A DNA stretch of 64,000 bases, from NCBI GenBank assembly GCA_947382625.1, contig CANDAG010000013.1, forward strand, positions 1 through 64,000, given 5' to 3'. Shown piece by piece: positions 38,925 to 52,227 of this stretch (position 1 is the stretch's first letter; each line of letters begins with the position of its first letter). The notes beneath the pieces were generated by a model. The model had not been told where the DNA came from, ran no database searches, and worked only from the letters and a program-made list of their open reading frames with translations. This stretch comes from an uncultured Lachnospiraceae bacterium (GTDB lineage Bacteria; Bacillota; Clostridia; Lachnospirales; Lachnospiraceae). The translations under genes and the position numbers were made by a program.

Positions 38925-40235
38925 TTATTCATTTTCACCCTCCCATCTGACAGTATCTCCCTTCGCGATTTCTTTTGTGGAGGATGTGACGATCCGGCTC
39001 TCTGTATCCAATGCGCCTTCCTCAATGGCAACCCAATGATCGTTATGGTCGAGTACCTTTACATTCACTGTATCTACATAGTATTCCTGCCCCAGGATCC
39101 CTTCCCTCTCCTTCAGCACATAGACAAAATTCTGTTTATCCGATTCGTGGAGGGCTGAGGGAGGCAGGCAAAGCCGGTATTTTTCTCCTTGCTCCGAACG
39201 GAAAATACTGCCGGATACCCCCGGTACTCCCATGCCTTCCGGAAGCTCGATCAATACCTCATACTTTTCCGCCCCTTCCCTGCTCTCTGCCAGATAAGCC
39301 ACCTTTTCCTCCAGCTCCTTATGTTCTCCCTCCAGCTTAACCGTGATCTCATCTCCCAGACCGATATACTTTTTCTGCTCCTTGTCCAGAGTAACCTTCA
39401 GCTGGCAGGGAATGCTTTCGTCAGAGATCAGCATCACCGCCGTATCTGCTGTCCTTCCTCCTGTTCCCACCATGATCTCCGTGATCACACCACCGAAGGG
39501 AGCCGTCACGATCCCCTGGCTGTCCTTTATCCTTTGGAGTTGGTTTAGTTCCTCGGAAAAACCGGACAACTCCAGCCGTGCCGTATCCAGATCAGAGGAA
39601 ACATTCTCCGGAAGGAGGATATCCTCCACCCTTCTTCCGGCCTGCTTCACCGCCTCGTCACGGGCCGCCTTTGCATCCGCCTCCCCGTAAGCCGCACTCT
39701 GCAGAGCGCCCTTCAGCTCCTTGTCTCCCCCGCTTCCGCCTTCTTCCTCCAGATCATTCTCCGCCTGGACATAGCTTTCCGCAGCACGCCCCACCTGGGT
39801 GTCCTGGAGTCTTGCAGTAATATCGTAATCCTCTCTTGCCCTGGCAAGCTCCAGTTCCTTTTTTTGCTCCTCAATGGCCTGATTTTCCAAAATGGCATTG
39901 ATCTGAAGAGAGATTTTGGAGATTTCATCCTTCTTTTTCTCCATCATCTCCTCAAGATCCTCAAGATCGATCAAAAACAGCACATCCCCTTCCTCTACCC
40001 TGTCGCCCACCCGGACAGGCATGGAAAGGATCCGAAACCCCGGCTGATAGGTGACGGGCTTTTCGCCTCCGGCCACCACAAGCCCCTCCGCCTCCACCTT
40101 ATGCTCCACATATTTTGACGCGGGCATGGTCGTATCTGCCATGGGAAGCCGGTAAGCGTAGACACTTTTTGCAACCAACGTACATATCCCCATAAATGCA
40201 AGAAAAATACCAAACCCTGCTATGACCTTTTTCAT
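38925..40235 (-). CDS. HlyD/MFP-type membrane-fusion adaptor
   Basis: A 436-residue protein with one N-terminal membrane anchor (residues 5-26, IAGFGIFLAFMGICTLVA). A biotinyl-lipoyl half-motif follows (PGFRILSMPVRVGDRVEEGDVLFLID, about 68-93), then a long alpha-hairpin coiled coil (about 95-240), the second lipoyl half (GIVTAPFGGVITEIMVGTGG) and a beta-barrel C-terminus. These adaptors normally belong to exporters. Here the gene follows, by seven bases, two sugar-importer permeases, which is unusual. It may couple the transporter to the cell wall or to an unlinked exporter. Confidence 0.85.
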   Translation of the reverse strand: MKKVIAGFGIFLAFMGICTLVAKSVYAYRLPMADTTMPASKYVEHKVEAEGLVVAGGEKPVTYQPGFRILSMPVRVGDRVEEGDVLFLIDLEDLEEMMEKKKDEISKISLQINAILENQAIEEQKKELELARAREDYDITARLQDTQVGRAAESYVQAENDLEEEGGSGGDKELKGALQSAAYGEADAKAARDEAVKQAGRRVEDILLPENVSSDLDTARLELSGFSEELNQLQRIKDSQGIVTAPFGGVITEIMVGTGGRTADTAVMLISDESIPCQLKVTLDKEQKKYIGLGDEITVKLEGEHKELEEKVAYLAESREGAEKYEVLIELPEGMGVPGVSGSIFRSEQGEKYRLCLPPSALHESDKQNFVYVLKEREGILGQEYYVDTVNVKVLDHNDHWVAIEEGALDTESRIVTSSTKEIAKGDTVRWEGENE

Positions 40236-40242
40236 TTCTTAC

Positions 40243-41130
40243 CTACTCCTTTAGTCCTGAATATATAATGCCCTGCTCCAGATAGTCCTGTCCGATGATA
40301 AACACAAACACTGCCGGCACCAGGGTGACCACACTGGCGCAAAAGGCAAATCCCGCCTGTCCCCAGGTGATCTGAGGCAGATACAGGGACAGAGGCCATA
40401 AAGACTTATCCTCCAGAAACGCCATAGGCTGCTCCATGAGATTCCAATATTCCAGAAAGCCCAGCACCATAGCGGAGAGAAGACCGCTTTTTCCAAGAGG
40501 AAGCCCCAGCCTTACAAATATGGTAAGCTCCCCGGCTCCGTCCACCCTTGCCGCCTCCAGCATCTGGTAAGGGATGCTCTTAAATCCCCCGTAGGACAAA
40601 AATACCGGGAATGTGGAAAATACCGCGGGCCAGATGATGGCCTGATGGGTATTTAAAAGAGAAAGCTCATTCAACACCAGATAGCTTGACAGCATAGTCA
40701 CCTGAAAAGGCATAAGCATAAGCACCACATACAGGGCAAACAGTCCCCGGCTTCCCCTTCCCTGATACACTGCAAAGCCCCATGCCGCCGGTACCGCAAA
40801 AAGGAGCTGTCCCGTCAGGATACACAATACCAGCTTCATGGAATTCCAGAACAGAACAAAAAACTGAGGCGTCTCAAACAACAGCTTTCCATAATTGGCA
40901 AAGGATGGATAATCCGGCACAAGCTTCCACCCGATAAATTCACTTCCATCCGTAAAGACTGTGCTGATGTACCCGCCCAGCTCCCAGGTATCCATAAGGG
41001 AGCCGGATAAAAGCAATAGTACGGGTAAAAACACCAGCAGAGCCGGCAGGAGCAGAGCCAGAAGCAGAAGCCCTTTTCCTGCCAAATTTCTCACTTTTAT
41101 CAATATTTTCCTTTTTTTATCTGTGCCCAT
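40243..41130 (-). CDS. Sugar-type ABC permease (MalG/CUT1 family)
   Basis: A protein of about 295 residues with six membrane segments and the ATPase-docking EAA loop as EAARVDGAGELTIFVRLGLPL (near residue 195-215). I place the start at ATG 41130 (GTG 41133 is possible). The upstream frame would overlap the other permease by 60 bases, and AAGGAG lies just upstream. It pairs with the next permease. No ATPase gene lies in the operon, so a shared MsmK/UgpC-type ATPase elsewhere is likely. Confidence 0.9.
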   Translation of the reverse strand: MGTDKKRKILIKVRNLAGKGLLLLALLLPALLVFLPVLLLLSGSLMDTWELGGYISTVFTDGSEFIGWKLVPDYPSFANYGKLLFETPQFFVLFWNSMKLVLCILTGQLLFAVPAAWGFAVYQGRGSRGLFALYVVLMLMPFQVTMLSSYLVLNELSLLNTHQAIIWPAVFSTFPVFLSYGGFKSIPYQMLEAARVDGAGELTIFVRLGLPLGKSGLLSAMVLGFLEYWNLMEQPMAFLEDKSLWPLSLYLPQITWGQAGFAFCASVVTLVPAVFVFIIGQDYLEQGIIYSGLKE

Positions 41131-41147
41131 CACTATTCTGCATCTCC

Positions 41148-42005
41148 TTACCTGTCCTCCCACAGCCTTTGCAGCAATAAAATTGCGATCATCAGAACAC
41201 CGCCGGTACACACTGCCGCGGCCGCCATTTTGTCAAGCTCCAGATTTACGAACCAGTTGTTGAACAGATGCTGCAGGAGATACATGCTTTGATCCGGATA
41301 GGCTCCCGCCGTCAGATAGGCCTCCCGGTAGATCTTAAAGGAATTCAGAAAGGATAAGATCACTATAGTAAAAAGACTTCCCTTCAGATTCGGAAGCACG
41401 ATCCTCCAAAACCGCTGCCAGCCTCCTGCGCCGTCCACCCTGGCGGCCTCCAGCATTTCCCCGGAGATCCCCCCAAGACCTGCCAGCCACAGGATCACCG
41501 TATAGCCCAGATTTTTCCATACATAGCTTCCCACCAGCACCCAGAAGGCCGTGGCTGTACCGAGATAATCCTTATGTACCTCTCCCCAGAGGCCCCAGTC
41601 AAGTCCGGCCCGGGTGAGAAATAAATTCAAAAATCCCTGCTTATAAAACACCAGCTTCCACACCAGCACCACAGTGGCAGTGGGCATGGCAAGAGGAAAC
41701 AGATAAATGGATTTGATCCATCCCTTCTTTTTAAATCTGCTTAGCATCAGTGCCACCATCAGCCCCGCCGAGACCAGAACAGGGATGCATACCACCGTAA
41801 ATTTTATGGTATTTTTCACTGCCAGCAAAAACGCCTGATTCCGGAAAATAGCCTGATAATTTTTTCCTCCGATAAACGCCCCCGTCACCGCCGTGGTGAA
41901 GGAACGCTTCACCACATCCAGAAAGGGCAGAAGGACAAAAACCATGATCCCCAAAAAGCCCGGAAACACAAACAGGCCAAAAAACTTTCTTCTCTTTTTC
42001 TGCAT
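41148..42005 (-). CDS. Sugar-type ABC permease (MalF/UgpA family)
   Basis: A 285-residue permease with six membrane segments and the EAA loop EAARVDGAGGWQRFWRIVLP (near 189-208). The N-terminal segment is FVFPGFLGIMVFVLLPFLDVV. It lies 20 bases after the solute-binding protein gene and directly before the MalG-type permease. Confidence 0.92.
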   Translation of the reverse strand: MQKKRRKFFGLFVFPGFLGIMVFVLLPFLDVVKRSFTTAVTGAFIGGKNYQAIFRNQAFLLAVKNTIKFTVVCIPVLVSAGLMVALMLSRFKKKGWIKSIYLFPLAMPTATVVLVWKLVFYKQGFLNLFLTRAGLDWGLWGEVHKDYLGTATAFWVLVGSYVWKNLGYTVILWLAGLGGISGEMLEAARVDGAGGWQRFWRIVLPNLKGSLFTIVILSFLNSFKIYREAYLTAGAYPDQSMYLLQHLFNNWFVNLELDKMAAAAVCTGGVLMIAILLLQRLWEDR

Positions 42006-42025: not shown

Positions 42026-44503
42026 TTATTCTGCCATATAGATAGCCAGCTTCTGCTCTATGGCATCCAGCGCCTCCTCCAGTTCCTGCTCTCCCCGGAA
42101 ATATTTCTGCCCTTCCTCCATCACTGCCTTTTCCAGAACCCTGTCTTCTATATAAGGGGTATCCGCCGACTCCATCCAGCCATAAAACACCGCAAGCTCT
42201 TCTTCTGTGGGCACATAAACATCCAGCTCTGTCTCTATTCCCTCTTCAGAAACCATAACCATAGAACCATACAGCCCGTCTTCCCCTACATACTCCTCAT
42301 CGGGCCGAAACAGCTCCTCAAGAGCACTGCGGTTGATAGAATAGCCTCCCAGAGCGCATTGGTTCTCCTTTCCAAGAAACAGCGTCAGAAAATCCTCCGC
42401 CAGCTCCTTCCGGCCGGACGCCGCATTGATGCCAAGCAGGGTCTCGGGGATAAATACTCCTTTGCTCTGCCCTTCCATAAGCGTCAGCGCTGCGTCTTCA
42501 CAGCCCTTTGCCTTGTGTACCGAGGTCAGATCATAATAGCCGTAAGGGTAGGTGTTAAGCCCTGTGAGAAGCTTCACATAATCTCCCACATAGTCCAGAG
42601 ACATTCCTCCGTAAAAGGACAGCTCATACTCCCAGTCCTCGCCGTAATCCCGGGCGGAAATTTCTGCAGAGGACTGGAAACGCTCCAGACTTTTGGCATT
42701 GATCCCGTCCATCTGAGCCTCATAGATCCTCTTTGTCTGGGTCAAAAACTCCGAAAGAGCCTCACGGTCAATTTCTCCTCCATCCCCCTTCCATGCAGGA
42801 GCGCTGACTGCGGCAAACATCTTCATGACTCCGATCTCAGAGCTGATCCCGATCAGATCTGCGCCCGGATTGTCCCTGCGCAGCTGTTCCATTCCCTCTG
42901 CAATGGCGGAAAGACCTTTCATGCCAGATACCAGCTCTTCCTTTCCCAGAAGGATGGGAAAGGCCACCTGTGCAGGGATCATATAGATCTCCTCCTCTGT
43001 TCCAAGGGCGCGGATCAGGTTTGTAAACAGCTCCTCCTCATACTTCCCAACAAACTCATTCAAATTAAGGAGCAGTCCCTTCTGAAGATAGGAATCTATA
43101 GGAAGTCCATCCAGCACCAGCACATCCGGCCCCTGTCCTGCCATGATCTCTGTGTTCAGCTTCTTAAGGGCGTCCTCCCTGGTAACTCCGCCTCCTTCTT
43201 CCATCCCCACCTCATACTCCACATGGACCTCCGGATTCTCCACCTGATAGGCGGAAGCTGCTACCCGGATATCATAGCTTTCTTTCAGGCTGTACACCTT
43301 CAGCTTCTCTGTAGGGACAGAAGCCACATTGGAATCATAAGTAAATTTCACAACCTTTCCGCCGGAAAAAAGAGCAATAAACTCTCCGGTTTCCAGCCTC
43401 AGCATATCCTTGATCCCATACCTGGGACTTCCCAATCTTGAGAGAGAACCGTCAATGAGCTGTTCTACCTCTCCCTGTCCCATCACATAGCGATGCAGCC
43501 CCTTTTTGCCTGCCAGATAAAGGGTTCCTTCCTCTCCCGGAAAAAGAAACAGATCATACCAGCTCCCGCCGTTAAACTGCCTGTCCGGATAATTCTCCTT
43601 CACAAATTCCGCAAGGACCTGGTCCTCCACGTACTCCTTCTTTTCCATATCATAAAGGATCGGTGCCTCAATGTCATAGCCGTCAATGATCATCAGATCT
43701 CCCAGGAACTGGATAAGCTGGGGATTTGTCTCCGTATTCAGATATATCTCCGTGCTGCCGTCCTCCTTTACCTCATAAACGCATTCCCTGTAGGTAGTCA
43801 TAAAAACCCTTCCGGAATCGGCAAGCCAGAAGTTCGTGGGATAGAGATCATCCTCACCCACAGAGTAAGTCACCGGCAGCTCCGTGCCATCAGGAAAAAG
43901 CAGCGCGCAGTCGGGATTCAGTTCAAACCAGGAGCCTGTGCTTTCCTCTCCGGACTCATCGGAAGCTTCCTCATCCGCCTCGTCCTCACCATCTGTATCT
44001 GCACCATATCCGTTCGCTTCGTCCTCATCAACATAGATGGCAGCCAAGGTACCGTCCGCCCCGACCTGGACATTCAGCATATATGCTGATGCACCCTTCT
44101 CTTCCAGCCACTGGATGCTCTCCGCCTTCCAGGTCCCTCCCTGATCCTCCGATACCTGAAAGCTCCGATAGCCGTCTGCGATCACCAGCTTCCCCTCCGG
44201 CAGCATCCGCAGATCATAAACCACCTCCAGGGCATCTGACAGATCTGTCTCTTCCTCCACGTACCGCCCCATGGACACTTCCTGCTGATCCTCTCTGCCG
44301 CCTTCTCCTGAGACATTCCCGGAAGGATTGCTTCCCTGAGCCCCATTCTCCCCGAAACCACTTCCTCCCGAGTTTGCCTGCCCTCCGCAGCCTGAAGAAA
44401 GCACCACTGTCACTGCCGTCAAAAGACACATAAGCCTTTTGGCAGACTTAAGTTTCTTCAAAATCTTTTTGTTCAGAAATTTTTTCATAAAAATACCTTT
44501 CAT
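42026..44503 (-). CDS. Lipoprotein with a propeller-like N-terminal half and ABC solute-binding C-terminal half
   Basis: About 825 residues, twice the usual size for this class. The signal peptide ends in the lipobox SSGC, with the lipidated Cys at about residue 38 from this start. Residues about 75-410 contain repeated beta-strand units with W/G-rich turns (LPEGKLVIADGYRSF, AGKKGLHRYVMG and similar), resembling sensor-type beta-propellers, with an acidic insert near 165. Residues about 420-825 are a family 1 extracellular solute-binding domain (EIMAGQGPDVLVLDGLPIDS; TLLGINAASGRKELAEDFL). Start 44503 has AGGAG ten bases upstream; ATG 44488 is also possible. The promoter carries tandem BlaI-like operators. 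Confidence 0.82.
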   Translation of the reverse strand: MKGIFMKKFLNKKILKKLKSAKRLMCLLTAVTVVLSSGCGGQANSGGSGFGENGAQGSNPSGNVSGEGGREDQQEVSMGRYVEEETDLSDALEVVYDLRMLPEGKLVIADGYRSFQVSEDQGGTWKAESIQWLEEKGASAYMLNVQVGADGTLAAIYVDEDEANGYGADTDGEDEADEEASDESGEESTGSWFELNPDCALLFPDGTELPVTYSVGEDDLYPTNFWLADSGRVFMTTYRECVYEVKEDGSTEIYLNTETNPQLIQFLGDLMIIDGYDIEAPILYDMEKKEYVEDQVLAEFVKENYPDRQFNGGSWYDLFLFPGEEGTLYLAGKKGLHRYVMGQGEVEQLIDGSLSRLGSPRYGIKDMLRLETGEFIALFSGGKVVKFTYDSNVASVPTEKLKVYSLKESYDIRVAASAYQVENPEVHVEYEVGMEEGGGVTREDALKKLNTEIMAGQGPDVLVLDGLPIDSYLQKGLLLNLNEFVGKYEEELFTNLIRALGTEEEIYMIPAQVAFPILLGKEELVSGMKGLSAIAEGMEQLRRDNPGADLIGISSEIGVMKMFAAVSAPAWKGDGGEIDREALSEFLTQTKRIYEAQMDGINAKSLERFQSSAEISARDYGEDWEYELSFYGGMSLDYVGDYVKLLTGLNTYPYGYYDLTSVHKAKGCEDAALTLMEGQSKGVFIPETLLGINAASGRKELAEDFLTLFLGKENQCALGGYSINRSALEELFRPDEEYVGEDGLYGSMVMVSEEGIETELDVYVPTEEELAVFYGWMESADTPYIEDRVLEKAVMEEGQKYFRGEQELEEALDAIEQKLAIYMAE

Positions 44504-44631: not shown

Positions 44632-44673
44632 GACTACCGCGATAGTCTGTAAATATAGACTATCACAGTAGTC
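44632..44673. promoter_or_regulatory. Tandem BlaI-type operators of the ABC operon
   Basis: GACTACCGCGATAGTC (44632-44647) and GACTATCACAGTAGTC (44658-44673) are two 16-bp palindromes whose centres are 26 bases apart. They have the same GACTATC..GATAGTC pattern as the pair upstream of blaI (46957-46995). The second overlaps the -10 region, as expected for repression. Confidence 0.82.
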
Positions 44674-44685
44674 GCTCTATGTCAA
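44657..44685 (-). promoter_or_regulatory. Promoter of the propeller-SBP/ABC operon
   Basis: On the minus strand TTGACA (44685-44680), a 17-base spacer and TAGTCT (44662-44657). The perfect -35 and weak -10 inside an operator match the architecture of the blaI promoter. Confidence 0.65.
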
Positions 44686-44710
44686 ATACTTTTATACACC
44701 CTGGGATTCC

Positions 44711-44741
44711 GTAACAGTGAAGCCGAGGGCTAAACTACTAC
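44711..44741. repeat. Diverged solo palindrome related to the MITE-like ends
   Basis: GTAACAGTGAAGCC, GAG, then GGCTAAACTACTAC. It folds like the outer hairpin of the element at 5262, with two mismatches. It lies just downstream of blaR1. Confidence 0.4.
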
Positions 44742-44755
44742 AAGACATCCCGCAT

Positions 44756-46402
44756 CTACCTCCACCTTCTGGTATACTCCTTTGACTCCTTTTCCGAAAG
44801 ATGCCTTAATCCCACAATATTTCCGCTCTGATCATGCTCTGCAACCACACCGGTGGTTCCGGTCTTCTCGCCGGAGGGATTCAAAAACAGCCGGCCTGAA
44901 AAGCCTTCCTCCTCAGGTATGGTATTATCCGCCAGAAAATAAATGGGCTCACCCTCATAAAAAAGCTGATAATCCGTATCCTCAAACCAGATACTGACCC
45001 CAAACCTCCCATAATCTTCAATCACAATATCTTCAATGGTCTTTTCGTCCATAAGCTGGTCCGCGGAGCCCGGCGATATTTGTTCAGAGGCCTGCTCCTG
45101 CAGGGAATCCGTATATTCTGCCGCACTTACCGCATACTCTGTATCCCCTGTCACAGTTTCCTCCCCGGCCCCGGCTGCTGCTGCATCCTCCACCACCACA
45201 AAGCTCATCTCTATCCCCGGCATATTCTCCCACGCCACATTTGTATATCCGCCAACAGACAGTCCGCTGTCCTCCTGTATCGTATCCGTTGCTATCACCG
45301 CATATTCCGACGTCTCCCCATCATACTCATACACCGCCGCATTACTCCCTGCAGCATAAGATACATCATAATGGGATCCGAAAGCGGTAAGTGCCATTCC
45401 CACGGCGGCCATCGCCCCCAAAATCCCTCTCGCTGTCACCTTCCTGAATTTCATAACTGCCGTGATCCTTTCGGTCACCGCATTTTTTCCAAAACCAAGC
45501 CCTGTCTGGAATCCCATGCTTTTCTGCTGGGCCATGGAAAGAAGGGCAAGGGCATAATCCTTCCGGCTCTCCTGCTTATTCCGCACCACGGTCTCATCGC
45601 ACAAAATCTCCATATCTCTGTTAAACAAAAGAACCATCAGCCACACCAGCGGGTTAAACCAGTGCAGGCACAAAACGCCATGGGCTACAAGCTTTTTCAG
45701 ATTGTCGTGATGCCTGATATGCACCAGCTCATGTCTGAGCCAGAAGGCGATCTCTTTTTCCGAATTTTGATACAACCCCTTGGGAAAGACAATGGCAGGC
45801 CGGAACACTCCATAAGTCACCGGTGATGCCGTGCGGTCGGAAATACAGAATTTCACCCTTTTCATCCGCTCCCTGTCCCTTTCCTCTAACAGCAAAAGCA
45901 GGAGTTGTTTTTCTTTTTCGGACATAGGAAGCCCTTCCCTGAAAAACTGACTGTCACGGTAATAAAGATACAAAGAACCAAGAATCATGACAAGAGCCGC
46001 CACCCCATAAATCATCCAGGGAAGATTGCTTTTTTGCATGCTTAACGCCAGACCGGACGCTGCCGCCGTATCTCCATTCTCCGTTACTGATATCACAGCC
46101 GTCTCTTCTCCGTCCCAGACAGAAGCGCTATGGGCCACCTTCCAGCACACCTTTTCCGATGGTACATCAACAAAAACGCTGCTTACAGCTTCCACTTTAT
46201 AGCAATCTAAAGAAATCGCTCCCAGATCACCGAGCCCCGGAAAGGGCATGGGAAGGGCAATCGGAAGCACCAGACGCAAAATCGCGATCTCCCAGAGCAG
46301 GATCATTGCCTTTTTGGGAACATAATTCATAAAAAGGATGCGGAATATGATAATTCCAATGATCAAAATCCCTGCCGTTAAACTCATCTGCACCAGGTTC
46401 AT
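44756..46402 (-). CDS. BlaR1/MecR1-like M56 membrane metalloprotease sensor
   Basis: About 548 residues. The membrane segments near the N-terminus are followed by a zinc metalloprotease motif HELVHIRHHDNLKKL (HExxH, near residue 240). The layout is that of BlaR1, whose protease triggers release of the BlaI repressor. The C-terminal external part (about 345-548) is short and shows no Ser-x-x-Lys penicillin-binding domain, so the signal is not simply a beta-lactam. I chose ATG 46402, with AGGAG 12 bases upstream. The frame also extends to 46477 through tandem repeats that would encode NNKPGRRL/NNKPERRL. Confidence 0.82.
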   Translation of the reverse strand: MNLVQMSLTAGILIIGIIIFRILFMNYVPKKAMILLWEIAILRLVLPIALPMPFPGLGDLGAISLDCYKVEAVSSVFVDVPSEKVCWKVAHSASVWDGEETAVISVTENGDTAAASGLALSMQKSNLPWMIYGVAALVMILGSLYLYYRDSQFFREGLPMSEKEKQLLLLLLEERDRERMKRVKFCISDRTASPVTYGVFRPAIVFPKGLYQNSEKEIAFWLRHELVHIRHHDNLKKLVAHGVLCLHWFNPLVWLMVLLFNRDMEILCDETVVRNKQESRKDYALALLSMAQQKSMGFQTGLGFGKNAVTERITAVMKFRKVTARGILGAMAAVGMALTAFGSHYDVSYAAGSNAAVYEYDGETSEYAVIATDTIQEDSGLSVGGYTNVAWENMPGIEMSFVVVEDAAAAGAGEETVTGDTEYAVSAAEYTDSLQEQASEQISPGSADQLMDEKTIEDIVIEDYGRFGVSIWFEDTDYQLFYEGEPIYFLADNTIPEEEGFSGRLFLNPSGEKTGTTGVVAEHDQSGNIVGLRHLSEKESKEYTRRWR

Positions 46403-46426
46403 CTTTTCACTCAGCTCCTTTCCTAA

Positions 46427-46488
46427 CAAACGCCGTTCCGGCTTATTGTTCAAACGCCGTCCCGGCTTATTGTTCAAACGCCGTCCTC
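46427..46488. repeat. Three tandem 24-bp units of the CAAACGC...CTTATTG family
   Basis: CAAACGCCGTTCCGGCTTAT-TGTT (46427-46450), the same with CCC for TCC (46451-46474), then a partial third unit to 46488. They lie between blaI and blaR1, covering the upstream in-frame codons of blaR1. Confidence 0.8.
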
Positions 46489-46489
46489 T

Positions 46490-46849
46490 TTACTCTTCCA
46501 GATCATCGATCATCCTCTTAAGCTGCTCGACTTCCTGCTTTGAAAGCTTTTTTCCGTCCAGAAAGGCGGCAAAAAACTTTTCTTTGGAGCCGTCGAACAT
46601 CTTATCGATCAGTTCTTCCGTCTCATAGTCCTGAACCTCCTGCCGGGAGATCAGAGCGCTGCACAAAAAGCCGGGCTCTTCTCTTTTGATGGCGCCTTTA
46701 TCCACACATTTCTTGATCACCGTGTAGGTAGTATTCCTGTTCCAGCCAATCTCCCCCTTTAATATTTTCACGATCTGCCCCGCCGGAAGATCTCCTTCCC
46801 GCCATAATACCTCCATCACTTTTCGTTCCGAATCAAACAATTTTATCAT
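46490..46849 (-). CDS. blaI: BlaI/MecI-family repressor
   Basis: A protein of about 119 residues with the winged helix of the family (about 1-75: ERKVMEVLWREGDLPAGQIV, then GWNRNTTYTVIKKCVDKGAI) and a C-terminal dimerisation helix. BlaI dimers bind palindromic operators and are inactivated by their partner M56 protease, encoded next here. I use ATG 46849, with GAGGAG upstream, not the ATG 13 codons earlier. Its own promoter carries two operator palindromes, so it is probably autoregulated. The same sites before the neighbouring ABC operon suggest that operon as its target. Confidence 0.92.
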   Translation of the reverse strand: MIKLFDSERKVMEVLWREGDLPAGQIVKILKGEIGWNRNTTYTVIKKCVDKGAIKREEPGFLCSALISRQEVQDYETEELIDKMFDGSKEKFFAAFLDGKKLSKQEVEQLKRMIDDLEE

Positions 46850-46883
46850 GTTGTAATGTCTCCTCTCTTTTCCAAACAAATCT

Positions 46884-46950
46884 GACAACGATACGCTTCG
46901 TGAGACGGCTTATTGGCCAAACGTCGACTCGCTTCGCAAGACGGCCAATC
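46884..46950. repeat. Two short dispersed palindromes upstream of blaI
   Basis: GACAACGATACGCTTCGTGA with GACGGCTTATTGGC, then CAAACGTCGACTCGCTTCGC with AAGACGGCCAATC. These are two members of the CAAACGC...CTTATTG family in a row, in the blaI leader. Confidence 0.6.
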
Positions 46951-46956
46951 AAAAAA

Positions 46957-46995
46957 GACTATCGCAATAGTTGTTTAAATACTATCACGATAGTC
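46957..46995. promoter_or_regulatory. Tandem BlaI-type operators of the blaI-blaR1 operon
   Basis: GACTATCGCAATAGTT (46957-46972) and TACTATCACGATAGTC (46980-46995) are 16-bp palindromes with centres 23 bases apart, the second covering the -10 region. Confidence 0.85.
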
Positions 46996-47007
46996 ATGGT
47001 GTGTCAA
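46979..47007 (-). promoter_or_regulatory. Promoter of blaI-blaR1
   Basis: On the minus strand TTGACA (47007-47002), a 17-base spacer and TAGTAT (46984-46979). The -10 lies inside the upstream operator palindrome. Confidence 0.75.
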
Positions 47008-47025: not shown

Positions 47026-47640
47026 TCATACAATTTGAATCTTTAATAATCCGGCCAGCTCAGCGGCCTGGTACATATTGACCTTAACCCCTGCCAGCTC
47101 TGTATAAGTATCAGAGACCATCAGGTTGGTGATCACACAGTCTGAAAGATCGATTCCCTTTAATTTTGTTTTGAAGAAATCTGCACCGTTGAAATTCACA
47201 TTGTGAAATACGGGCTTTTTTAATTTCACCTCTGAAAAAAAGCTCTGTTCCATATTACAGTCAGATGTCGATGTATTTTCCCAAAGAGTGGATACAAAAT
47301 TGCAATACAGGCAGCTGCAATCCTTCATTTCCGTGCTTTTAAACGAAGCTGCGCCAAAGGAACAACCATCCATTTTGCAGCTCAGGAATCTACAATTCTT
47401 AAAATACGCATTTTTCAGACAACAGTTGCTCAGATCACAGCTATCAAATATAACATCGATAAACTCTCCGCTGTCAAAATCATTATCCGGAATCTGGCAC
47501 TTTATGAACTGAACCCTCTCAAACATTACTTTTCGTGCATTGATACCGCTGAGCCTTTCATTTTCAAATATCTTTTGTTCTATGGCATTTTCAGCTTCTA
47601 TCGCCTGATCGATCTCATCATATAGCAAATCAAAAACCAT
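47026..47640 (-). CDS. Pentapeptide-repeat-like protein
   Basis: A protein of about 204 residues. Residues about 25-180 form a pentapeptide-like right-handed beta-helix with repeated units such as VIFDSCDLSNCCLKNAYFKN and MDGCSFGAASFKSTEM, unusually rich in Cys. Function cannot be read from the repeats; family members range from DNA-mimic gyrase protectors to effectors. ATG 47640 lies inside the 3' end of the FliD-like gene (11-base overlap in another frame), so the two are probably translated together. There is no signal peptide. Confidence 0.72.
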   Translation of the reverse strand: MVFDLLYDEIDQAIEAENAIEQKIFENERLSGINARKVMFERVQFIKCQIPDNDFDSGEFIDVIFDSCDLSNCCLKNAYFKNCRFLSCKMDGCSFGAASFKSTEMKDCSCLYCNFVSTLWENTSTSDCNMEQSFFSEVKLKKPVFHNVNFNGADFFKTKLKGIDLSDCVITNLMVSDTYTELAGVKVNMYQAAELAGLLKIQIV

Positions 47641-48406
47641 AATCAAACATATTTCCCGCGGTGTAAGCCTTATTATAGCTTCCATTCCAGTCATAGGTGG
47701 CAGACTTGGATGCTTCCGATTCAGCGGCCCGGTTCATCATGGTTGCCTGAGCGGAAACCCTGTCTGCGTAAGAGGAATTCCCGTTGAACAAAGATTTTGC
47801 CTGTGTCATGTCCGCTGCCTTGAAGGCCTTCTCATCTATGGATAATGTCTTATCCTCATTGATGGTGATTCCCACCTTCTCAAGCAGATTCTTATTGGCA
47901 TTTGTGATCCCTGCCAGGGCTTTCCCCCTGTTCTGAACGGTGGATGACTCAGCGGCAGAAGCCTGCTTCATTACCTTATTATAATCATCCACAAATGCGG
48001 AAACCGAGCTGTAAATGGCATCAGTGTCATAATCCTTCCTGGTGCCGGTCACTCCCTTTTCATCCTTAGTCTCCACATCAACCTTATGAAAGACCGACTT
48101 GCTCCCTGTCCTCGTCAGGGCATCCGCCGAACCCTTAAGATCATCCGCCGCGCTCTTGATGGATGATAAGGTCTTCACGGAATCTCTGGCGGCAGAAGTA
48201 CTGCTCGTATTGTTTTTCTCCGCAATAGAAGAGATTTCTTTGGCCCCATTGCCGCCATAGTAAGCCTTCATCAGCTTGCCATAGCTGCCATTCCTGATCG
48301 AGGCATAATCTGAAAGGAAATTCAGATTACCGGTGCTGCCTCCTGACATGTTCTGAAACAGATAGGAATAATCCTGCTTCATTCCAACATTAATATTCAT
48401 TCCCAT
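47630..48406 (-). CDS. FliD-C-like (hook-associated protein 2-related) protein
   Basis: A 258-residue soluble protein. The N-terminus is low in complexity (MGMNINVGMKQDYSYLFQN). Helical segments (about 75-100 and 130-160, SSVSAFVDDYNKVMKQA) and a later region, EKVGITINEDKTLSIDEKAF with SLFNG, resemble the C-terminal D0/D1 part of flagellar cap protein FliD. No flagellin, hook or export genes are nearby, so it may be a stand-alone relative. ATTAATATTCATTCC-type upstream sequence and a purine-rich AAAGGAGTGAT site precede the ATG. Confidence 0.6.
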   Translation of the reverse strand: MGMNINVGMKQDYSYLFQNMSGGSTGNLNFLSDYASIRNGSYGKLMKAYYGGNGAKEISSIAEKNNTSSTSAARDSVKTLSSIKSAADDLKGSADALTRTGSKSVFHKVDVETKDEKGVTGTRKDYDTDAIYSSVSAFVDDYNKVMKQASAAESSTVQNRGKALAGITNANKNLLEKVGITINEDKTLSIDEKAFKAADMTQAKSLFNGNSSYADRVSAQATMMNRAAESEASKSATYDWNGSYNKAYTAGNMFDYGF

Positions 48407-50283: not shown

Positions 50284-51480
50284 CTATCTTGAAAGCTCCA
50301 CCTCTGTCTGAAACAGTGCTTTTGATAAAAGAGAATCAAAATCTCCTTTGTAATTCATGTAAGTTTCTTCATCACAGACAGCGATGGTTACTTTGCTCAC
50401 ATCCCTCTGCCACACGCTGTAGGTTCCCACGATCGGTCCTCTGCTCTCCAGCTTCTGCCCCCGGGCATCCGCCATGACGACCACATAATCTCCGGCAGAC
50501 TCACCTTCCGGACAGATCAGATCCGCCGTAATCTCATAAGGAGATCTGCGGACGGTTCCAATCCCAATCCCGTTCTCATTGGCAAGATTCATTTCCTTCG
50601 TGATCACCTCGGAATCGTTGGCGGTGACATCGATACTAAAGTCCCAGTTACCGGAAATTTTTTCAAGCTGAACAGGATCGTTTGTATAGGCGGCTGACTC
50701 CGGTTTGATCACATAAATATCCGATATCTTAAGTCCATAGGTAAAATGCCCGGGCAAAAGGTCAGGCCTTTGCAGGTTTCCTGCCTGGTCAATCCCGGCC
50801 AGATTCGCCAGATCAACCCGGATGATCCCGGCAAAGGTGGCGCTGTCCAGAAAATTTCCTTCAATGATAAAAGGCGACTCCACACCAAGGGCCGGATCAA
50901 AGGTGAGCCTTCCGGGAGCAGCCTCCCCAAAATCAGCCGTTGCCACTGTGTCCATTTCCAGTACCTGATATGAGAGATCCCAGCCCTCATTGACATCCAA
51001 AAACGTCTGTGGAAATCCGTCCTCTGCCTCCAGACTCACCGCAAGGTACAGGGACATACTGTCAGCATAGCTTTCTGAGATGGAGAAGGTCACTCCCCCG
51101 GATGTCTGGCAATAAAGGCTCTCTTCCGGCACCTGATTTTCTGCTGCGGCAGCTTCTGTCCCAGGTGAAGCGAGAGGCTTGGATTTAGTACTGTAGTCTC
51201 CGGGATAGCTCACCTTTTGCTCCTCCAGCTGGAAGATTCGTCCAATGATGGGGATCTGGGCCGCCAGTGCCGGATTGGCAGTGCAGAAGATAAAGCACAG
51301 CACAAGGGCTGCCGCAACAGCGGTTATGGTGATTCTCATATGATGAAGATTTTTTCTTTTGGGGGTGGTCTCTCTTATCATGGTGTATGCCTCCTGTATT
51401 TTCTGGTCGATCAGGTCGGACTCCGGCAGATTCTGACCAAGTATGTTCTTAAGTTCCTGTTCTGAATACATTTTTTTCAT
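50284..51480 (-). CDS. DUF4179-type membrane anti-sigma factor
   Basis: A protein of about 398 residues: a short cytoplasmic N-terminal segment (about 1-45) that would bind the sigma factor, one membrane segment (about 47-67, ITAVAAALVLCFIFCTANPA) and a large external domain of two beta-rich parts, typical of DUF4179 proteins. The start at 51480 has AAAGGAG seven bases upstream; the longer frame overlaps the sigma gene. It follows the sigma gene directly, so sigma/anti-sigma pairing is very likely. Confidence 0.88.
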   Translation of the reverse strand: MKKMYSEQELKNILGQNLPESDLIDQKIQEAYTMIRETTPKRKNLHHMRITITAVAAALVLCFIFCTANPALAAQIPIIGRIFQLEEQKVSYPGDYSTKSKPLASPGTEAAAAENQVPEESLYCQTSGGVTFSISESYADSMSLYLAVSLEAEDGFPQTFLDVNEGWDLSYQVLEMDTVATADFGEAAPGRLTFDPALGVESPFIIEGNFLDSATFAGIIRVDLANLAGIDQAGNLQRPDLLPGHFTYGLKISDIYVIKPESAAYTNDPVQLEKISGNWDFSIDVTANDSEVITKEMNLANENGIGIGTVRRSPYEITADLICPEGESAGDYVVVMADARGQKLESRGPIVGTYSVWQRDVSKVTIAVCDEETYMNYKGDFDSLLSKALFQTEVELSR

Positions 51481-51506
51481 GGGATGCTCCTTTCCTGGGT
51501 CAAAGC

Positions 51507-52004
51507 TCATGCGTCCTGCAGCTGTGTTCTGAGCAGCTCTTTTCCCCTGTGCAGCCTGCTCTTTACGGTGCTCTCCTTCATGTGCAGTATGTCCGAAATT
51601 TCCCTGGTAGTATACTGCTCTCCATAGTAGAGCTGAAAGATAAGCCGGCTCTCAGCCGGAAGCGCAAGAAGCAGCTCCCGAAACTCCACATAGCTGTTTC
51701 CCGCTTCCTCTTTTTCAATTTCCGGCAGTTCCGAAGCAGAACAGCTTTTTTTATTGTGGTTAAATATTTTGTTGCAGTTATTGATCAGGATCCTGATCAG
51801 CCACGTTTTAAAATAATCAGGCTTTTTCAGTCCGCCGATGCCCTCCCAGGCATCCAGTATCGTATCCTGTATGGCATCAGCCACATCCTCCTCATTTCGG
51901 AAAAAACCAAAGGCTACCCGTTGCATAGCCTGCCTGTTTTCCTCCATCAATCGGATAAAGGCCTCCGGATTACGGTGTTGTGCCTGTTTTACCAGTGTCC
52001 TCAT
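51507..52004 (-). CDS. ECF-type RNA polymerase sigma factor
   Basis: A protein of about 165 residues. Region 2 has EEDVADAIQDTILDAWEG (near 42-59) and YFKTWLIRILINNCNKIF. Region 4 has YTTREISDILHMKESTVKS (near 133-151). ATG 52004 is preceded by TGGAGG at five bases. It is paired with the DUF4179 anti-sigma factor that follows it. Target promoters cannot be read here. Confidence 0.92.
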   Translation of the reverse strand: MRTLVKQAQHRNPEAFIRLMEENRQAMQRVAFGFFRNEEDVADAIQDTILDAWEGIGGLKKPDYFKTWLIRILINNCNKIFNHNKKSCSASELPEIEKEEAGNSYVEFRELLLALPAESRLIFQLYYGEQYTTREISDILHMKESTVKSRLHRGKELLRTQLQDA

Positions 52005-52227
52005 GTTAACCTCCATAAAATCTGCCCATGGGTTTTCCGGTCAGCTTTCATTCTCGCGCGATGACAAATCTCCCTCATAAGCGGTTTGTCATCTATTAGA
52101 TAAAAAAACAGAGGATTTCGATGCATCAAATTTTAAAAATCGAGCAGGGAAGGTTACTTCCCCTGCCCGCCGCGCGACCCGTGCGCCGCGTTAGCGGCAT
52201 ATTACATCTGCACGGGTCTGCGCACCT

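Follow-up and report, generated by a model that had tools for sequence, protein, structure and literature searches.

Paired palindromic sites ahead of a BlaI/M56 gene pair and a neighboring solute-binding protein operon in Lachnospiraceae

What does a BlaI-type repressor control, and what does its partner protease detect, when that partner has no penicillin-binding domain? The question is raised by a 64,000-nt stretch of DNA from an uncultured Lachnospiraceae bacterium (positions 1 to 64,000 of contig CANDAG010000013.1, assembly GCA_947382625.1; hereafter, the window). In it, a blaI-type gene and a gene for a BlaR1-like membrane protease of the M56 family lie beside an operon for a solute-binding protein (SBP), two permeases, and an adaptor. 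From the sites and promoters described below, we consider it very probable that this BlaI controls two operons, its own blaI-M56 operon and the SBP-permease-permease-adaptor operon.

Paired putative operators at two predicted promoters

As a first-pass annotation of the sequence had noted, one pair of 16-bp palindromes lies ahead of blaI and another ahead of the SBP gene. The predicted blaI promoter (46979..47007, reverse strand) has a −35 element TTGACA (47007-47002), a spacer of 17, and a −10 element TAGTAT (46984-46979), with a TG one base ahead of the −10. The predicted SBP operon promoter (44657..44685, reverse strand) is built in the same way, with TTGACA at 44685-44680, a spacer of 17, TAGTCT at 44662-44657, and the same TG. 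In both cases the −10 is supplied by the right arm of whichever palindrome is closer to the −35. The TTGACA, 17-base spacer, and weak −10 within a palindrome that had been reported are all present (a promoter consensus scan of the window listed the blaI promoter only, not that of the SBP operon). Operator 1 (46980..46995 for blaI, 44658..44673 for the SBP gene) overlaps the −10, and operator 2 (46957..46972 and 44632..44647, respectively) lies approximately at the predicted transcription start; no strand is assigned to any of the four. The description of these elements as 16-bp palindromes stands for a constant core, ACTA-N6-TAGT, common to all of them, but not for the arms, which are imperfect (14, 10, 12, and 12 of 16 positions are self-complementary in the palindromes at 44632, 44658, 46957, and 46980), nor for a common spacing, given that site-to-site distance is 26 bp at the SBP promoter and 23 bp at the blaI promoter.

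The window contains four cores, where 0.23 are expected, and no more than two occurred in any of 100 dinucleotide shuffles. Single sites are uninformative, because a genome scan with a single 16-mer, allowing three mismatches, gave 141 forward matches versus 163 for the reversed control. In the 4.18 Mb assembly there are two pairs of cores 6-18 nt apart, one precisely at the blaI promoter and one at the SBP promoter, versus no pairs for the reversed-pattern control; a simulated 40 Mb of DNA (first-order Markov, with the composition of the window) held 138 single cores and no pair. A genome-wide palindrome search, which had been suggested as a check, found no perfect pairs in the window's genome beyond these two.

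The repressor gene (119 aa; 46490..46849, reverse strand) starts with an ATG at 46849 that is preceded by AGAGAGGAG. The frame from 46855 matches Pfam PF03965 (Penicillinase_R) at E=5.3e-25, with 88.4 bits against a curated cut-off of 22.6, and the protein aligns over nearly its full length with MecI and BlaI of known structure. MecI and BlaI are cleaved at an Asn-Phe bond near residue 101; this position aligns with FFAA-FLDG in the window's protein, which retains the Phe but not the Asn. An identification as CopY was rejected, based on a TIGR02698 score of 63.7 bits (cut-off 121.95) and the lack of a C-terminal Cys-X-Cys. The dyads in the gene's own promoter are conserved across genus orthologs, and BlaI is predicted to bind them.

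The same genome has seven BlaI genes and seven M56 genes (eight matches, as one gene is split in two), arranged in pairs (G000 contigs 1, 7, 13, 15, 16, 30, and 97; L052-L058). In the 400 bp ahead of the other BlaI genes there is no ACTA-N6-TAGT core (0 of 6), and at E<=1e-30 a search for a second close BlaI returned a single match, with no further one in this genome. A scan for exact palindromes with 7-bp arms detected other repeats ahead of some paralogs (e.g., GTCTAAT/ATTAGAC, twice before the BlaI gene of L057) and none ahead of the rest, including the window's own, whose arms are imperfect. Given this mixed result, the suggestion that the seven BlaI proteins use different operators is partly a reading by eye.

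Conservation in the genus and wider occurrence

We compared 37 genomes of the genus, the window's included, many of which are incomplete. Close M56 orthologs (E<=1e-80) number 20, again counting the window's, and BlaI orthologs with 79-92% identity occur in 19 of the other 36 genomes; these are the same 20 genomes. SBP genes fall into orthologs of the window's gene (SBP-1; 52-66% identity, 20 of 37 genomes, including the window's) and paralogs (SBP-2; 41-49%, 20 loci from 21 matches, as L216 holds two). A perfect operator pair precedes SBP-1 in 19 of 20 loci versus none of the 20 SBP-2 loci, at which not even a single ACTA-N6-TAGT core was found. All 20 transport-operon promoters listed (those of the 19 SBP loci and one from G235) have TTGACA, 7 nt, and two perfect cores. 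G235 (59% complete) yielded no SBP gene, and its pair is immediately ahead of permease A (L119:6789-7793).

The sites at blaI are weaker than those at the transport promoter. Among the 20 blaI promoters of the genus, the pair is perfect in six, has one mismatch in 10 and two mismatches in one, and is reduced to a single core in three. In five genomes the two operons are not adjacent, with genes between them or a location on other contigs, and sites occur on both (L131, L134, L136, L124/L197, and L125/L198), although only one of the cores at blaI is perfect in these five. Conserved sites, including those in genomes in which the operons are no longer neighbors, and the absence of sites at the paralogous SBP operons support the first-pass proposal that one repressor serves both operons. 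The BlaI ortholog and SBP-1 also tend to occur together (both in 17 genomes, BlaI only in three, SBP-1 only in three, neither in 14; Fisher p=5.6e-05, uncorrected for relatedness). In two loci (L130:5266-12382 and L137:3500-12147), three BlaI/M56 pairs are clustered, with the orthologous pair in the center.

The perfect-pair pattern has 30 matches in 24 of the 37 genomes, and each could be assigned: 19 precede SBP-1, one permease A, six the orthologous blaI, two a paralogous blaI, and two a gene for a secreted protein. This last gene encodes 181 residues and is found with its pair in G201 and G205 (L191:8990-9639 and L192:8577-9227), and, nearly identical and again with a perfect pair, in another genus (L259:893-1543), presumably owing to either transfer or contamination. 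A different BlaI is encoded close to it in both L191 and L192.

When 397 genomes from the family were searched with a stricter pattern, it matched 31 times, in 25 genomes (two from this genus). At the 23 pair loci outside the genus, a BlaI gene starts within 300 bp in 16 and an M56 gene is present in three more; no SBP, permease, or adaptor gene was seen at these loci in the ~3 kb read at each. The operator class thus appears to be a trait of a BlaI subfamily, given that at most loci in other genera it is accompanied by BlaI or M56 genes and at none by the SBP operon, and its use at an SBP operon is seen only in this genus. The proximity of BlaI genes to the sites outside the genus (16 of 23 loci) is further support for a single repressor.

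The sensor, the transport operon, and competing explanations

The M56 gene (548 aa; 44756..46402, reverse strand; Pfam PF05569, E=5.1e-42) encodes a membrane part, a protease with the HExxH motif in the form HELVH, a variable linker, and a conserved C-terminal ectodomain of ~95 residues (44756..45046, reverse strand, stop codon included, delimited from an alignment of 20 orthologs). The first-pass annotation held that the protease motif is kept and the penicillin-binding domain gone, and both parts hold: HELVH is present, and the transpeptidase domain PF00905 was not found in the sensor by Pfam profile search. A paralog from the same genome (L052, the only one of the other six M56 proteins with the domain) served as positive control, and because PF00905 was detected there (E=2e-42), the search would have revealed such a domain in the window's sensor. 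The sensor also scores 80.4 bits against NF000326, for which the cut-off is 400, and has two SxxK tetrapeptides (residues 122 and 511), each found in the same columns in one of the 20 orthologs. The external part had been described as short and without a Ser-x-x-Lys domain. The second half of this is consistent with the absence of PF00905, but the external part is not simply short: it comprises ~200 residues (the last membrane helix, at ~residues 322-342, was placed by eye and was not flagged by the hydropathy script), made up of the hypervariable linker and the conserved domain.

The two external segments differ sharply in conservation. Averaged over the other 19 orthologs, identity to the window's sensor is highest in the protease (65%) and lowest in the linker (16%), with 41% for residues 1-160 and 46% for the final 95 residues, and the ectodomain has 11 invariant columns in the alignment of all 20. 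A profile of the ectodomain recovers all 20 orthologous sensors, along with two other M56 proteins of the genus. Its weak matches (E 2e-5 to 9e-5) are to three lipoprotein-like secreted proteins, each of which appears by eye to contain two copies of a distantly similar domain (L243:946-1839, L244:1453-2355, and L245:958-1851). A profile search of the PDB gave no convincing match for the ectodomain (best E=0.31). In Pfam, five families were each matched by one of the 20 members at E<=1 (best, MORN_2, E=0.0018), and none is convincing. It is a reasonable inference from its domain content that the sensor responds to something other than a beta-lactam; that the signal is the transported compound is a guess.

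The transport operon is encoded on the reverse strand throughout. The SBP is a predicted lipoprotein of 825 aa (42026..44503; PF01547, E=1.6e-08), with an ATG at 44503 behind AAAGGAG, a lipobox-like LSSGC identified by eye, and an N-terminal region of ~400 residues ahead of the SBP_bac_1 domain. The fold of this region was not established: profile matches to Scone chains, which we take to be designed propellers, are weak (best E 6.7e-09, with no single stretch passing). The gene is followed by those for permease A of the ATP-binding cassette (ABC) type (41148..42005; PF00528, E=3.5e-16), ABC permease B (40243..41211; PF00528, E=8.8e-10), the listed start of which overlaps permease A (the true start is probably further in), and a HlyD/RND-type adaptor (38925..40235; PF13437, E=7.6e-06; TIGR01730, E=3.3e-20, under its cut-off). 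A family-1 SBP (PF01547) and two permeases (PF00528) are as in a CUT1-like importer, for which sugar import is predicted only. No ATPase gene lies between the SBP gene and a downstream gene for a CE2-type esterase; a shared ATPase elsewhere was not looked for. The esterase gene (PF17996; 37747-38808), 116 bp past the adaptor gene, gives no clue to the substrate, as no counterpart was matched at any other mapped locus of the genus. On the other side of the locus, a gene for a pentapeptide-repeat protein (47026-47694) ends just ahead of the blaI promoter and its start is overlapped by a gene for a short FliD-C-like protein (47630-48406). Further along (50284-52016) there is a sigma-factor-like gene, then one for a membrane protein of a kind often paired with it, as judged by eye from the translation.

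A competing account is that the sensor still answers wall stress or beta-lactams, in which case the ectodomain would bind a wall precursor or a fragment of peptidoglycan, and the role of the transport operon would be in wall recycling or in drug response. We regard this as possible, though clearly the less probable reading. The family itself offers precedent: in C. difficile, one transcript joins a BlaI/BlaR pair to the gene for a putative peptidoglycan hydrolase (PMC9210968), and in B. licheniformis a peptidoglycan fragment is reported as a trigger (PMC3305447). However, this sensor has no transpeptidase domain, whereas its same-genome paralog L052 does, and the conserved operon genes (SBP, two permeases, and adaptor) include no recognized wall gene. 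The ectodomain, having no convincing family match, favors no ligand either way.

Several observations weigh against assigning both operons to this one BlaI. The SBP-1 pair is retained in G232 (96% complete, 8% contaminated) and in G230 (78% complete), but no orthologous BlaI (at least 79% identity) was found in either, only 59-60% relatives. In some species (L193, L194) a second BlaI subfamily has the same operator class, making cross-talk possible there. The blaI pair is imperfect in most species, as noted above, and distances within pairs range from 22 to 29 bp, so there is no fixed helical phase. Several genomes of the genus are closely related (e.g., the SBPs of G206 and G234 are almost identical), and the counts are accordingly not independent. 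The reversed-pattern control was not empty in the larger searches (six matches in 5 of 37 genus genomes and seven in 6 of 397 family genomes), and at four of the 23 pair loci outside the genus the 3 kb read contains no BlaI or M56 gene.

The first two of these observations are what would be seen if another regulator, for example a paralogous BlaI, owned the sites at the SBP operon. We think this unlikely, given that the window's blaI promoter itself bears the sites, that cores are absent upstream of the six other BlaI genes, and that none of those proteins reaches E<=1e-30. Finally, the notion that the repeats are RNA hairpins (a terminator or attenuator between the M56 and SBP genes) rather than repressor sites was rejected as very improbable: a scan does rate the pair at 44632-44673 as a terminator-like hairpin with 17 pairs, but such matches are at shuffle level (three found, mean 2.7), a like pair lies ahead of blaI, a promoter stands at fixed distance in 20 of 20 transport and 17 of 20 blaI cases (those in which a pair was found), and the letters of the half-sites are constant, not just their pairing.

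Probable exchange of regulators and comparison with known systems

The SBP-2 operons are associated with a different kind of regulator. Homologous response regulator and kinase genes occur in the fetched stretch at 18 of the 20 SBP-2 loci; of the others, L212 has a kinase only and L214, which is near a contig end, has neither. Close homologs of these two-component genes are near SBP-1 at one of 20 loci (L196), which is also the locus without palindromes. Weaker matches at three SBP-1 loci (L120, response regulator 9e-49 and kinase 2e-30; L195, response regulator 1e-22; L132, response regulator 2e-26) are probably unrelated to the SBP-2 system. Outside the genus, 12 loci were picked from among the top SBP matches; nine have both two-component genes, one the response regulator alone, and two neither.

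In a tree of 52 SBPs (19 have an operator pair, 23 are encoded within 3 kb of a two-component gene, and 10 belong to neither group), the 19 pair-bearing SBPs form one side of a single branch with support of 100/100 (100% of 200 bootstrap trees). L215, with both two-component genes ~5 kb away, was scored as having none under the 3 kb limit. The next branch is L196, with the two-component system and no pair, at a support of 86/88, which is under the strict mark. Given that the SBPs with a pair group in a single clade, the genus probably acquired BlaI/M56 control on one occasion. The simplest reading of the tree would be one exchange, after duplication, of the two-component system for BlaI/M56; its direction is taken from the midpoint root and from how widely the two-component link occurs, and distant sequences in the tree are on long branches.

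The sites, the geometry of the promoters, their conservation, and the SBP clade are read from the sequences themselves. By analogy with better known relatives, we infer how the system might work, from BlaI binding and repression to cleavage and the signal. BlaI would repress its own promoter and that of the SBP operon via the palindrome pair at each, with one dimer on the extended −10 and another approximately on the transcription start. Given TTGACA and the TG extension, both promoters may be strong once BlaI is gone. An outside signal at the C-terminal ectodomain would activate the HExxH protease of M56, which could then cleave BlaI, directly or after self-cleavage as in BlaR1, so that both operons are turned on. 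With weaker blaI operators, as in most species, some regulator would be made even under repression, whereas transcription of the transport operon would remain firmly shut off. The probable history in this genus is that BlaI/M56 displaced a two-component system that accompanied an operon of this type.

If this mechanism is correct, the result is a clear-cut regulon of two operons, its sites located exactly, under a BlaI/M56 pair with no penicillin sensor, in a clade in which sister copies of the operon are found next to a two-component system. Both the exchange of signaling systems on a single target and the nature of what M56 sensors detect when they have no penicillin-binding domain thereby become directly testable. 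In practical terms, caution is advised before such genes are annotated as beta-lactam resistance regulators. A broader proposal, for and against which we find the case evenly balanced, is that BlaI/M56 with a new kind of ligand-binding ectodomain (distantly like the tandem domains of the lipoprotein-like secreted proteins) replaced the two-component system and is one of seven such wires with different promoter sequences. BlaI/M56 would then be a general, insulated signaling family comparable to two-component systems, with penicillin sensing as one use.

In titles and the beginnings of abstracts in the open-access literature, no description of a link between an SBP and BlaI was found. The closest precedent is in Clostridium thermocellum, in which two BlaI proteins bind GTCTAT/GACTAT sites by DNA affinity purification sequencing (DAP-seq) and electrophoretic mobility shift assay (EMSA), with two inverted-repeat pairs per promoter and regulons of three and one operons (PMC8457756). 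The half-sites, the two inverted repeats per promoter, the autoregulation (here predicted), and the small regulon are shared with the window's system. The C. thermocellum targets comprise sensory genes, genes for hypothetical proteins, and one putatively involved in peptidoglycan synthesis, read as a beta-lactam response (PMC8457756), unlike the second target here, an SBP/permease/adaptor operon. PetR/PetP of Synechocystis, a BlaI-like factor and BlaR1-like protease in copper control, resembles the window's pair in serving non-beta-lactam genes with a small regulon, according to a commentary (PMC7896320). It differs in being linked to copper, of which we saw no hint here, and to photosynthetic electron carriers, and in that PetR also activates (PMC7896320).

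Staphylococcal BlaI/BlaR1 and MecI/MecR1 share the repressor family, the HExxH M56 protease, and adjacent genes (PMC7593790), whereas the window's sensor has no penicillin-binding domain and the target is neither a beta-lactamase nor a penicillin-binding protein gene. The CopY/CopR copper repressors belong to the same Pfam family and have paired operators, but their published operator, RNYKACANNTGTMRNY (PMC7253601), is unmatched in both promoters here, and the window's repressor has a protease partner and no Cys-X-Cys. A further comparison is within the genus, in which SBP-2 operons (e.g., G000 contig 14, L051) have homologous SBP, permease, and adaptor genes in the same order, but with a response regulator and kinase alongside and no ACTA-N6-TAGT core. 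Given the precedents of C. thermocellum, PetR/PetP, and C. difficile, the finding varies a known theme rather than defining a new class of system: GACTAT pairs bound by BlaI, and BlaI/BlaR1-like pairs outside beta-lactam control, were already known, and what appears new is their use at an SBP operon.

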